From Bugula neritina (lineage: Eukaryota; Bryozoa; Gymnolaemata; Cheilostomatida; Bugulidae), in assembly GCA_964035545.1 (NCBI GenBank), contig OZ037768.1, forward strand, positions 22,346,819 through 22,410,818: a DNA stretch of 64,000 nt. The letters run 5' to 3'. Positions 4,316 through 60,700 of the stretch are shown here, piece after piece. Under the pieces are notes generated by a model. It did not search any database. It was not told the DNA's origin and was given only the letters and a program-made list of their open reading frames with translations. The position numbers and the translations under genes are program-made. Positions within the stretch are counted from its first letter, which is position 1, and each line of letters starts with the position of its first letter.

Positions 4316-7300
4316 ATGATACAGAAATCACCCACAGCAGCTTGGTCACGGCCTACCATACTAAGAGAAGGAGAAGAAATTCAATATGAAAAAGTGGAAG
4401 ACGACATCTGGGCTTGTCCTTTCTGCGATCCTGTCAAAAAGTTATTCACGTCTGCCGAGTCGGTAAAAGAGCACATCCATGTCGAACACTCCAAGAAGCA
4501 AGTTCTGCATAATGGTAATTATTTAATGTTAATCTATGTTTATTAGGTTTGGATCAAGGTGAATAGTTATGAGATATTGTATTAGCTTTTACAAATTTTC
4601 TGCTGCGTAAACTTTGCCATATATCTAGAGAGCTTGAGACATGCATAAGGCATAAGATTATGTGTGTTGAGATAGTAAACTATATGATACAGAAGGGTAA
4701 AGTGTTCCACAAATACATTAATAGAATCTAAATAATACACTACTAGCAGGGAGTTTTGTTTCCATACATTACAGAATGTAAATTTCCTAAAACAATTTAG
4801 TAATAGAAGAAAACTGGTGGTCACAGTGTTTCACACAATTTTAATCTAGTTGGTTTGAATCAGTGTATTGTAAGATTTCTAATAATAGAAGAACATTTTT
4901 AAGTTGTCTAAGACTTTCAAACAATCTTAACCAATCTAGGTTGGGTGATCTTCAAATGTAACCAGGCGTGTGGCGTGCTGCGAGACAGAAGTCACTATCA
5001 CTGCCCAACCTGCGACAAGGCCGTGATTAGTCGAGGTGACTTTGTGTTCCACCTGAAGGGCCATGACATGCAGAAGGGCACACAGGCGGCCCGTGGCAGG
5101 AAGAAGACTCTAGCCACGGTGATGAGCAACGAGGCCGGCCTACAGCACATCCAGGTATGTCATTTCATCAGCATTCCGCTTTGTCAGCACTAGTCTAGTA
5201 GCTTCCTGTCAGCATAGACATTCTGTGAAAGATTACTTGCACTGTGCTATTATTTCTGTCTAGTTGTTTAGCCACGCTTCACTGGTGGTTTCCCCAACCA
5301 TCCTGGCTCTGATAGATGATCAGCAGAAATTCTGGAATGAACTTCAGTTGAAAACCGGAATGACTTGTCTGAGAGATGGAGAGGAAGGCCAACAGTTCTG
5401 TGTTCTGCAAGGTTTTTGTCTGTTTACTGTATAATATGCACTGCAGATTCTGTTAACTGCATAATATTTTGCCTGTTTCCACTAACTGTCCATAGCTACA
5501 CTGAGCTGTAACCACTTAGAGCTGTAAAGGGAAAAGTTACACCTAGATTATAACTGACCTTATCTCGCATTTTCTTTGGTTCCTAAGATATTGTTTGCAA
5601 GGCAGTAAGAATTTCATCTCAATCATAGAAATAATGGAGGAGATGATATGACGAGTTGTTTCTACTTCTATACAGGGCAGTATGACAGTGTGATAAAAGC
5701 CAACACTTTCCTAGAGAAGTACGTGTTGAATAAACTGCATGATGAGGTGGCGGCTCAACTTCACAATGACAGTCTGTATGCAGGGAGTCAAGTCGCTGCC
5801 GCAGGTGAGTCTCTGCTGCCGGAACATTTTTTTTCTGTGTAGCTTTAAATCAAACGACTGCATACACGTAATGTAATACTCTGTAGTGACTGGTTTAACT
5901 AGACTCAACGCGATTGCATATATGTACTCTGTAGTCTGTACTAACTGGTCTAAAGAATCCCTGACACGCTTTATTTATGTAGTATTAAAATATTCATATA
6001 TATATATATTACCTTTTCATTTACATACTGTTTTAAGGTTGAATGCCTGAACAATTTTGTTTATGCACACAACCTTATAACAGTATGTAGATGAAAGCTT
6101 ATATATATATAAGAATATTTTAACACTGCATAAGTGAAGCGTGTCAGGGATTAATTAACTAGACGCATATGGTTGCATATTACGTAATGCAATACTCTGT
6201 ACCAGTTAGTTATACCTGCAGACAGTGAAGTCTCGCTGCCGAGTGCCTCTGCACAGAACTCGCAAGCAGACGAATCTCCTGATGTTAGAAAATCTGCGAG
6301 AAAGCGGAAACCCAACACCATGCTGGATGAGTACATAACTCCGAAGAGCGCTAAGCTGGAGCATGGAGTGAATCTGGCAGTAAGAGTTTGCTTGAGTACC
6401 AGTGTCTGTGTAGATTAGGACTGCTGACTTTCTACTCGGCAGCTTTCAGATATCACAGAATGCTGACTTTCAAAGTTGTGTTATTTATCAGACATGTGAT
6501 GTATCAGATGGTAGAGTTAGTATTGTATCAGACACGTGGTGTATCAGATGGTAGAGTTGGTATTATATCAGACATATGGTCTATCAGATGGTAGAGTTGG
6601 TATTATATCAGACATATGGTCTATCAGATGGTAGAGTTGGTATTGTATCAGACATGTGATCTATCAGATGGTAGAGTTGGTATTGTTGTAGTCTAGCAAT
6701 GCCGCTGCCGTGAGACAATCAACAGTCGCTCAGTCGCTGATGACGACTGTAGAGCAGGAGTGTCACATTACGCTGTCTAAGAATAACATCCAGAATGGTA
6801 GGTTTACTCTACACGAGTGTTTAGTTTCGCATCTTATTCATTATCTACTCATGGTTTTCAGGTCTGCGTGTCATGTTTATATTAAATTCTAAATTTTGTA
6901 TTGACCTAACATTAACATCACGATGAAATTACTCATAGTTTTTGTTTTACCTACTAGTTTAATGTTTTTATGGTAAATGCATTCGGAAACTAAGTAATTC
7001 TAGTTGGCCTGTTGGGTTTAGTTAGTTGTTAACAGTGAAAAGACTGCTATGTTGATATATAATTTGTTTGTCTCCTGTGTTTTCGACTAAAGAGCTGAAA
7101 CACAGCTGGTATCGCACTATAAATACATGATGTACTACATAGGGTTATAATGTTACTTGTTTCTGCATGCGTGTTGCTTAAGAATATAATATAGTTTTTA
7201 TTCTTCTACAAAAATAAAATTATTACAAATATACATCTTAGTATATGGATATGAGTAGATTGCTGTATAAATTTAATCATTTAGTTTGTTGTCTCACTTG

Positions 7301-57700: not shown

Positions 57701-60700
57701 TACACACGCTATATTACACATGCTATATTACACACGCTATATTACATACACTATATTATACACACTATATTATACACACTATATTACACACATTATATTA
57801 CACACGCTATATTACACACGCTATATTACACACGCTATATTACACACGCTATATTACACACGCTATATTACACACGCTATATTACACACGCACATGCGCG
57901 CACGCACGCACGCACGCACACACACTACCTGATGAGGTTTAACTGCCCGCCCCACTTGAGGAGAGAGAAAGATATCCCCGTCCTTCCCATCATGCCCCAC
58001 ATTCACCAACACTCGACCCTCGCTGTCTGGCTGATTCTTAGAGTCATCCACATGGATGCCGCTGTTTTCTGGGTCAGCACTAGAGTCTTCTTTCTCATCT
58101 ATTCATTACATAACCATAGACATAAGCACGGCAGCAATGTAATGATGTTAATGTAATATAGTGTGACTATACACTATTATATATAATAATATGGTCATCA
58201 CTCATAATATGTACACAGTATTCTAATATAATACAGCAGTACCATAGCTTATTACACTTTAATATTGCAAGTACTAATGTTATAGAATACAATATACCAA
58301 AAACTGAGTGTATTACCATTTTCTTGCAAACTAACTAGTAAATTACACAATATTTGTGTATTTGCTACACTATAACATCATTGGAGCTTTCATGCCTTAG
58401 TTTTCATCAAATATTCAGTTGATTTAAAAAGCACATGCTATGTAGAATGTAGCATAGTATTTAGTTGTGATGTATTGTAATATATAAATATATGCCGCAT
58501 AAGTATTATATACTGTAATATAAAGGTACAGCATACTGTAATATATAGGTATAGCATATTGTAGTATATACAGGAATAACATACTGTAATATGAAGGTAT
58601 AACATATCAACTGTAATATAAAGGTACAGCATACTGTAATATACAAGTATTAAGCTGAATAGGCATGTTATTATATCAACAGTTATTCACTATGTCAATA
58701 TTTATCTATACTCCTTCCCTACTCATAAATTTCCTGGTTGTTAACACAGTTTACTTCTACTACTGCATGATACTATAAACTTTAAAATCTGTATAAGGAA
58801 ACAGAAAGCAATCATCAACTATCTGGTAAACCCCAAATTCTGGTAAACTCCAAACTCTGGTAAACCCCAAATCCCAATGCCTGGTAAACCCCAAATCCCA
58901 ATGTCTGGTAAACCCCAAATCCCAATGCCTGGTAAACCCCAAATCCCAATATCTGGTAAACTGCAAACTTTGGTGAGCCCAAAGGCTCACATAGAGTAAA
59001 TTGAGATCTAATCTGAATTTACCAAAAGCTGTTTACAGCTTGATATAATAGCAGCACTCATAGATGGTAGTATAACATGCATATTGGTTTACTAATGGAA
59101 ATACCCAACTTAAATCAGCAAATGCATTTATTAATTTCAAGTAGATAACTACACTAATTACTAAAATGTATTGAGATAAAAGTTTAACTTGTAGTTTAAT
59201 TTCTAAGTTAACAACACTGTGCACTTTAATTATGGGAAGGCAACTCCTTCCCATAAATGTTATAATGGTACAAAGCCCTTTAAGAAAACAGGAAATAAAC
59301 TTTGAAGTATGCCATATTGAAAATATGTAAACTAAATTACAGTTAAGGTAATCAAAGAGTAGTAGTGAAAGATTTATTGCCAGTCGATTTTATATTTTTA
59401 GTAGAAAGTTTATTCACCTGTGAACACTACACTACATTAGGAAATGCTATAGCTGCTAGTAATAAGTAACTAACTAAACAATCAGCTTCATGCTAAGTGA
59501 ATACAGAGAGAGAGAGAGAGAGAGAGAGAGAGAGAGAGAGAGAGAGAGAGAGAGAGAGAGAGAGAGAGAGAGAGAGAGAGAGAGAGAGAGAGAGAGAGAG
59601 AGAGAGAGAGAGAGAGAGAGAGAGAGAGAGAGAGAGAGAGAGAGAGAGAGAGAGAGAGAGAGAGAGAGAGAGAGAGAGAGAGAGCCATGAAGTCAAGAAG
59701 GCATTGCCCTCAGCCAATATAATGAATATTTCACATCATTTATTCACTATTTGAAGAAACTAACACTTTTAAATTAAATTATAACTTTTTAGAAAACTGA
59801 TAACTTTATAGCTGGTATATTGAGCCAGCTTCCAGAAAAGAAAATAATTACAACAAAATTTGTCAAAATTAAAACTAATAACTTTTTTCGCTAAGTTTAC
59901 TACTTAGAGTATTGGTTACACAGAATTAGTCACAAATCACAACCTAAATCAAGGTGGTGAGAAGAGTTGAAGGTAACATAAGATAATAGCCCTAGAACCT
60001 CACCTTGTTTGGTGTCACTGCTGTGATCTAAGACTATACAGCAATCATCATCATCTGAACTGGAGAGTTCGACTACTTTATGTTCAGTGCAGAGCTTCTC
60101 TAAAACAGGACACAGGCTATTATATACACTATTATGTTACATGCTTGTATATACATTATTATGATATATACTTGTATATACACTATTATGTTATGTACTT
60201 GTATATACACTATTATAATGTATTGCTTTGCAAAAAAGATTCCAAATAGGAGAATGCTTTTAAATCAAGTTTGGTTCTATGAAAAAAAGCAGGAAATATT
60301 ATTATCTAGAAGTTGATGGTGCAATTCCCTTTGTCTTATAATTATAAGCTTAGATAATTTAGTGCATAAATAAAAAAGAACAATTTGTCCACAAATGTTT
60401 ACAGAAAAAATTAATGAGGAACAACTGGAGTCTTGATTGCCATTTGTACACACATGCGTGTTATATAATTATTTGTCATTATGAATAATAATTATATTAT
60501 ATTCCATTATTAGATGTGTTGCACTTTGTTCTACAAGGATTAAATATAACCCAAACACAAGGTAGAAGGTATTTGTACATATAGATAGACATAAATATAA
60601 ACAACACTAAGAGTATAGGTAACTATTTAACATAATAAAATATAATATACTATAATATGTTATAATGTATAAAGTAACATAACAAAATTTAATGTAATAA

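Follow-up and report, generated by a model that had tools for sequence, protein, structure and literature searches.

Tandem arrays in the introns of the bryozoan Bugula neritina are anchored to exon–intron junctions. The pattern came to light in a window of 64,000 nucleotides, C4:22346819-22410818 of the 216 Mb assembly (GCA_964035545.1; contig C4 is OZ037768.1), for which a first-pass annotation had listed about twenty minisatellites beginning or ending at or near splice sites in five unrelated genes. The anchoring is real, and is not due to short introns, GC profile or splice-site strength. We describe the elements as junction-anchored, "mirage"-like minisatellites and favor, with confidence evenly balanced against doubt, the reading that they stem from tandem duplications of 10-70 bp that arise preferentially at exon–intron junctions.

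Intronic arrays are anchored to splice sites

The sample comprised 364 kb, 5,000 bases of which are N: the window plus its flanking 50 kb on either side, and two 100-kb blocks at 10.0 Mb on C4 and at 10.0 Mb on C1. A self-trained exon-chain gene finder called 290 introns of at most 6 kb in this sample. Five further introns were set by hand where the models had missed or garbled the Ig-domain gene, the vanin gene and part of the RUSF1-like gene; the final models fuse some neighboring genes, and one fused model contains an internal stop. Tandem Repeats Finder (TRF; period of at least 7, at least 2.8 copies, length of at least 60 bp) returned 80 arrays, of which 60 lie inside called or hand-set introns; the remaining 20 were excluded from the anchoring test. 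As a null, each array was placed uniformly in the non-array remainder of its own intron, and distances to both intron ends were scored.

Within 30 bp of an intron end we found 29 of the 60 arrays, against 13.9 expected (exact P 1.6e-8), and within 10 bp 17, against 6.3 expected (P 2.4e-6). Both ends are used, 17 arrays lying at most 30 bp from a donor (5′ splice site) and 14 from an acceptor (3′ splice site). In the window itself the counts are 20/29 within 30 bp (9.4 expected; P 7e-8, a value biased by the window having been chosen for showing the pattern) and 12/29 within 10 bp (4.7 expected). The 300 kb outside the window gave 9/31 within 30 bp (4.5 expected, P 0.0085) and 5/31 within 10 bp (1.6 expected, P 0.014). 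Random placement in introns thus does not give the pattern, as the first-pass annotation had held. The anchoring is also seen at homology-supported junctions alone (10/13 within 30 bp, 5.1 expected, P 8e-4) and with a single array per intron (n = 51, Kolmogorov–Smirnov (KS) P 2e-6). It is present among arrays shorter than 200 bp (n = 37, KS P 4e-3) and is marked among clean arrays of at least 85% identity (23/38 within 30 bp, 10.2 expected); degenerate arrays below 85% show little of it (6/22, 3.7 expected).

The arrays of the window, in window positions, are the following.

6482..6686 (+), 40-bp × 5.2 array, 5 bp from the 3′ splice site of intron 6380-6691
7707..8677 (+), 30-bp × 32.8 array, 4 bp from the 3′ splice site of intron 7507-8681
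8816..8987 (+), 31-bp × 5.5 array, beginning 1 bp past the start of intron 8815-9259
9960..10341 (+), 43-bp × 8.9 array, nearly the whole of intron 9950-10334 (10 bp left) and 7 bp of the next exon; the unit repeats the 3′ splice site
10548-10604 (+), weak 16-bp array, closer to the donor in intron 10532-10790
10598..10774 (+), 12/24-bp array, 16 bp from the 3′ splice site of intron 10532-10790
11007..11393 (+), 11-bp array (77-bp higher order), 12 bp from the 5′ splice site of intron 10995-11573
12037..12918 (+), 39-bp × 22.6 array, 16 bp from the 5′ splice site of intron 12021-13522
23069..23377 (+), 29-bp array, unanchored; nearest modelled site 217 bp off
25092..26158 (+), 20-bp × 52.8 array, 6 bp past the 5′ splice site, filling hand-set intron 25086-26192
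26407..26625 (+), 22-bp × 10 array, 23 bp past 5′ splice site 26384 of a hand-set intron
32189..32456 (−), 23-bp × 11.7 array in the GNB5-like gene, starting at 5′ splice site 32455; the consensus unit holds AAG/GTAAGT
39109..39323 (+), degenerate 35-bp array in the Ig-domain gene, about 15 bp from 3′ splice site 39334 of a hand-set intron
43955..44250 (+), 25-bp × 11.8 array, 27 bp from 3′ splice site 44277 of a hand-set intron
46970..47171 (−), 23-bp × 8.8 array, unit repeating the 3′ splice site with 6 bp of exon overlap; intron 46976-47259
47831..48136 (−), 28-bp array, repeating 5′ splice site 48123 and 11 bp of exon
48329..49374 (−), 20-bp × 53.4 array, filling intron 48303-49379 except for 5 and 26 bp at the two ends (31 bp left)
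52258..52586 (−), 20-bp array, unanchored, 378 bp from the 5′ splice site
52655..52936 (−), 32/67-bp array, 28 bp from 5′ splice site 52964
54434..54828 (−), 11-bp × 35.9 array, 2 bp from the 3′ splice site, filling intron 54432-54866 (40 bp left)
56224..56410 (−), 47-bp × 4 array, unit repeating 3′ splice site 56244 and 20 bp of exon
57669..57891 (−), 14-bp × 15.9 array, classed as unanchored at 37 bp from 5′ splice site 57928

TRF recovered the arrays where the first-pass annotation had placed them, with one exception: the array that the annotation linked to 57317, at about 57100-57310, was not reported. Of the 20 splice coordinates named in that annotation, 11 coincide with a modelled site, one is off by 1 bp, and the others are at most 27 bp away. 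Its remark that only a few arrays sit clearly away was too strong: nine of the 29 in the window (2971, 9686, 23069, 35707, 52258, 57669, 58510, 58856 and 62272) are more than 30 bp from a site, although array 2971 lies in a called intron, 902-4324, that is probably a gene-joining error.

If arrays lay at random in short introns, both of their edges would fall near splice sites by geometry alone, and several arrays do nearly fill their introns, such as 9960, 48329 and 54434. The null, however, conditions on the intron remainder, and where that remainder exceeds 200 bp, 17 of 47 arrays still lie within 30 bp of an end, against 4.5 expected. Removal of introns longer than 3 kb leaves 28/53 against 13.7, and outside the window 9/28 against 4.4 (P 0.007). 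In the C4 block around the window, introns that carry arrays have, once the arrays are subtracted, a median length of 355 bp (n = 45), versus 426 bp for array-free introns (n = 100; P 0.67); the arrays thus sit in ordinary introns. Geometry as the sole cause is therefore decidedly improbable.

Three other sources of bias were rejected. Gene finding on unmasked sequence gives an equal result, which argues against a masking bias of the gene finder. GC content, 45% in called exons and 32% in introns, is flat beyond 25 bp into the intron, so that an intron-internal gradient is not the cause. Nor are donors next to arrays weak: their median score is 5.42 (n = 17), versus 5.46 for the others (n = 243; P 0.58). 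This ordinary donor strength, together with the fact that most units differ between genes, also speaks against positive selection having retained arrays by splice sites for tuning splicing. A minisatellite of C. elegans is enriched in introns that flank alternate exons of genes with multiple splicing decisions, according to excerpts of PMC4039745, which lends the idea some substance; for the bryozoan arrays we rate it very unlikely.

Most anchored arrays do not copy the splice site

Array anatomy was examined at the edges lying within 25 bp of a site, 16 at donors and 13 at acceptors; the hand-set Ig-gene ends of 39109 and 43955 are slightly off in this set, and the latter edge, 27 bp from its site after correction, would drop from the 29. 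The splice site itself is repeated at six of these edges and not at the other 23. Acceptors are copied in arrays 9960 and 46970 (with 6-7 bp of exon) and 56224 (20 bp of exon). Donors are copied in 47831 (11 bp of exon), in 32189 (the GTAAGT hexamer only) and in an array at 10.09 Mb on C4, where 10 bp of exon recur in four copies with a TRF match of 100%. The unit of 47831 holds CCTGTGTACAG/GTATAT, an acceptor-like sequence followed by a donor. At the other 23 edges, the ten terminal exon bases match the next unit at just 1-4 positions, which is about chance and argues against drifted straddling copies as a general account. Splice-site copying is thus a sub-class, and anchoring is the broader fact.

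The same anatomy bears on the proposal, made in the first-pass annotation beside that of seeding at junctions, that selection tolerates arrays only where a usable splice site survives in every unit. The units of 32189 and 47831 do carry good splice sites, and tandem perfect donors form a genome-wide class (see below). Where anchored arrays reach 80% unit identity (25 arrays), however, the consensus unit holds a donor of at least median strength in two cases and an acceptor of at least that strength in four, leaving at least 19 of the 25 with no such site, and the donor scores of the units are not higher in sense than in antisense orientation (Wilcoxon P 0.70 for anchored arrays, 0.85 for all 42). 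As a general rule the proposal is contradicted, and we consider its chance of being the explanation minimal. What stands from the earlier interpretation is the anchoring to junctions, as measured against the residual-intron null; seeding of tandem duplications at junctions fits it and is the best remaining reading, albeit unproven.

Tandem donor words recur genome-wide

Perfect 5′ splice sites in tandem are widespread. Three copies of AAGGTAAGT spaced 5-35 bp apart match 430 times in the genome, versus 8 for the reversed word, and three of CAGGTAAGT in tandem 319 times, versus 1; summed, the triples number 749 versus 9. Reversed words were the only controls, and the matches overlap, the first 100 listed for each word corresponding to 19 and 23 arrays. 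Singly, AAGGTAAGT is present 3101 times, versus 2537 for its reverse; at a ratio of 1.2, its abundance does not explain the excess of its triples. The acceptor word TTTTGCAG gave 14 tandem matches versus 0, seven of the 14 on contig C219. At about 178-260 kb on that contig, the TTTTGCAG triples show an irregular kilobase spacing, recalling a long array of a satellite or element.

Shared units and array density

Most units differ between genes, and yet some are shared. Three exact copies in a row of the 11-bp unit CTATACTCTGT occur at three places in the genome, all on C4 (54434-54828 in the window, C4:359525 and C4:9338394), and array 11007 has 37 11-mers in common with array 54434. The 20-bp unit of 48329-49374 is found by exact search in three arrays, likewise all on C4 (including C4:20836821 and C4:22324551). 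Unit families thus look chromosome-restricted. When 56 arrays were compared, 13 pairs had at least three 11-mers in common, versus a mean of 0.1 for shuffled units.

Such sharing would be expected if ready-made units were copied, by a templated or mobile process, into breaks at exon edges from elsewhere on the chromosome. Against this, the exact unit of 25092 is found at a single locus genome-wide, and the sequences flanking the arrays do not recur in the 364 kb (2/76 flanks, 2/76 control segments), for which reason a transposon carrying the arrays was also rejected. We regard templated spread as rather unlikely.

The density of arrays varies strongly: those of at least 100 bp number 26 in the 64-kb window, versus 5 per 100 kb at 10.0 Mb on C4 and 2 per 100 kb at 10.0 Mb on C1. 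C4 is 24.8 Mb long and the window is 2.4 Mb away from its end; of the nine tandem-donor arrays listed on C1, four are no more than 1 Mb from a contig end, against 0.5 expected. Minisatellites usually lie near such ends. The density in the window, its nearness to the end of C4 and the contig-end bias on C1 bear on the step of array growth.

Host genes and support for the splice junctions

Three genes of the window are assigned as follows.

4325..14714 (+), C2H2 zinc-finger gene, 15 exons hand-modelled at 4325-13669 and a probable last exon at 14346-14714
31223..33780 (−), G-protein beta-5 (GNB5) gene, part of it in the model, assigned by homology
45734..60099 (−), SNF2 helicase gene of ATRX/RAD54-like type, with further modelled exons from 63572 on

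The zinc-finger gene carries arrays in eight of its 14 introns. Its protein is 98% identical over 100% of its length to EB796_007415 of B. neritina and 65% identical to a protein of Watersipora subatra, and all 14 junctions match the annotated proteins of the two species; a little downstream of one of them, that of intron 7507-8681, four residues are missing from the B. neritina protein. In an intron of this gene, at 5990-6110, an inverted repeat with an AT-rich core that resembles a miniature inverted-repeat transposable element was seen by eye.

The GNB5 model aligns in a single stretch with beta-5 chains in the PDB, scoring 478 bits (a chain given as beta-1, which matches twice, scores 569 bits) and is 73% identical to a Watersipora beta-5-like protein. 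A match to a G-beta-type paralogue on C3 continues through the residue at the GNB5 array intron; the duplication that gave rise to the G-beta paralogues is old. The SNF2 helicase scores 441 bits to ATRX, and a perfect (AG)90 dinucleotide run lies at 59505-59684. Gap-free alignments to G-beta and ATRX proteins span the junctions at arrays 32189, 52655, 54434 and 57669, in the last case with just four aligned residues upstream. At 56224 homology supports just the downstream side; upstream, a gap of 20 residues in the alignment ends 2 residues short of the junction. Of the GNB5, SNF2 and IFT122 junctions checked in this way, those at arrays 74212 and 83201, outside the window, were likewise bridged without a gap. 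Protein homology is thus continuous across the checked array junctions, 56224 excepted.

The gene hosting array 25092 we take to be RUSF1/DUF647-like. About 100 bp past its stop codon lies a 24-bp array, 29548-29737, which is coding in the unmasked models and may be translated or belong to the 3′ untranslated region. A pantetheinase exon in the window is 93% identical to VNN1 of B. neritina, and the Ig-domain gene hosting array 39109 was assigned by eye. Scans of the window for tRNAs and against Rfam at gathering thresholds were both empty.

Origin and growth of the arrays

In the reading we favor, tandem duplications of 10-70 bp would be born preferentially at exon–intron junctions, where the edge of an exon nucleosome, the step in base composition or paused transcription are candidate causes of a hot spot. 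Duplications whose unit is wholly or partly intronic would be silent if splicing continues to use the first of the donors and the last of the acceptors, the outermost real sites, as the intact reading frames lead us to infer. The arrays may then lengthen by unequal exchange within the intron, with selection probably halting them at the exon edge. The outcome would be what is observed, arrays beginning 1-30 bp into the intron or extending at most 20 bp into the exon. A minority of seeds would straddle the junction and so carry the splice site into the units, where its copies are found.

An alternative is that arrays start anywhere in the intron and that an unstable zone widens until it piles up at exons, where selection stops it. 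Few clean arrays do enter exons (an overlap of more than 30 bp with called coding sequence is seen in three TRF rows with an identity of 85% or more), and anchoring is stronger in longer arrays (Spearman −0.29, P 0.02), which spread up to an exon would equally produce. Some short arrays anchored at one end of long introns, for example one of 125 bp with 709 bp of intron left and one of 147 bp with 918 bp left, speak against it, and we consider this alternative unlikely.

Besides the length correlation, several points weigh against birth at junctions. The splice sites are predictions of the gene finder, with a homology check for part of them. The sample outside the window is small: beside the window 7/23 arrays are anchored against 4.1 expected (P 0.051), and in the distant blocks 2/8 against 0.4 (P 0.051). 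The acceptor word hardly recurs in tandem. Two units recur elsewhere on the same chromosome, so that not every array need be a local duplication. Finally, the chance-level exon match of the non-straddling class implies that their seeds began inside the intron, for which the model gives no reason.

More tentatively, and short of even confidence, we suggest that junctions in bryozoan genomes act as hot spots where tandem duplications are born, at donors and acceptors alike and regardless of the splice motif. They would provide a steady supply of arrays, some of them tandem perfect 5′ splice sites, which lengthen introns and could spawn new ones. If so, living colonies would allow intron growth and gain by tandem duplication to be measured instead of being guessed from a few ancient cases. 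Arrays in which a dozen 5′ splice sites follow one another lend themselves to the study of donor choice by the spliceosome.

Comparison with known systems

A family of mostly intronic minisatellites, CeRep25B of C. elegans, occurs in clusters mainly on chromosome III and less on II, as excerpts of PMC4039745 describe it. The bryozoan arrays resemble it, to the extent of that description, in being mostly intronic and in having unit families mainly on one chromosome; they differ in that two shared families lie on C4 only and a third unit, searched exactly, at a single locus. Introner-like elements are near-identical intron copies scattered over many genes; the bryozoan arrays do not fit that type, their flanks being unrepeated in 364 kb and three units searched genome-wide being found at three places each in two cases and at a single locus in the third.

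In the Rogers model, as discussed in excerpts of PMC3087553, introns are gained by tandem duplication of an AGGT-bearing segment. Tandem AG/GT copies are found in the bryozoan array 47831 as well. Potato RdRp is reportedly a case listed under intron gain by tandem duplication.

The closest known system is that of the amphioxus "mirages", minisatellite-like arrays at 5′ and 3′ exon–intron boundaries of Adh3, the globins BflGb6 and BflGb9, troponin C and PGBD5, many of whose units carry AG/GT splice signals (excerpts of PMC3087553 and PMC3902484). In lancelet PGBD5 the first repeat abuts the splice site (PMC3902484, in excerpt). Mirages are reported or suggested not to disturb splicing, and instability is reported too (PMC3087553 and PMC3902484, in the same excerpts). 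The bryozoan arrays share with them tandem arrangement, minisatellite-size units, location within genes and presence at both junction types, and the six straddling arrays fit their anatomical definition (32189 in part), whereas the others do not. Among the literature matches listed, we found no report of such arrays in bryozoans. Mirages are described, in those excerpts, from a few cephalochordate genes and mostly span the boundary; here tens of arrays are supported by a statistical test, lie mostly just inside the intron with no copy of the splice site, and are accompanied by a genome-wide class of tandem donors. New relative to the lancelet mirages are thus another phylum, the statistical test and the position mostly just inside the intron; if junctions are duplication hot spots, lancelet mirages would be no oddity of their lineage.

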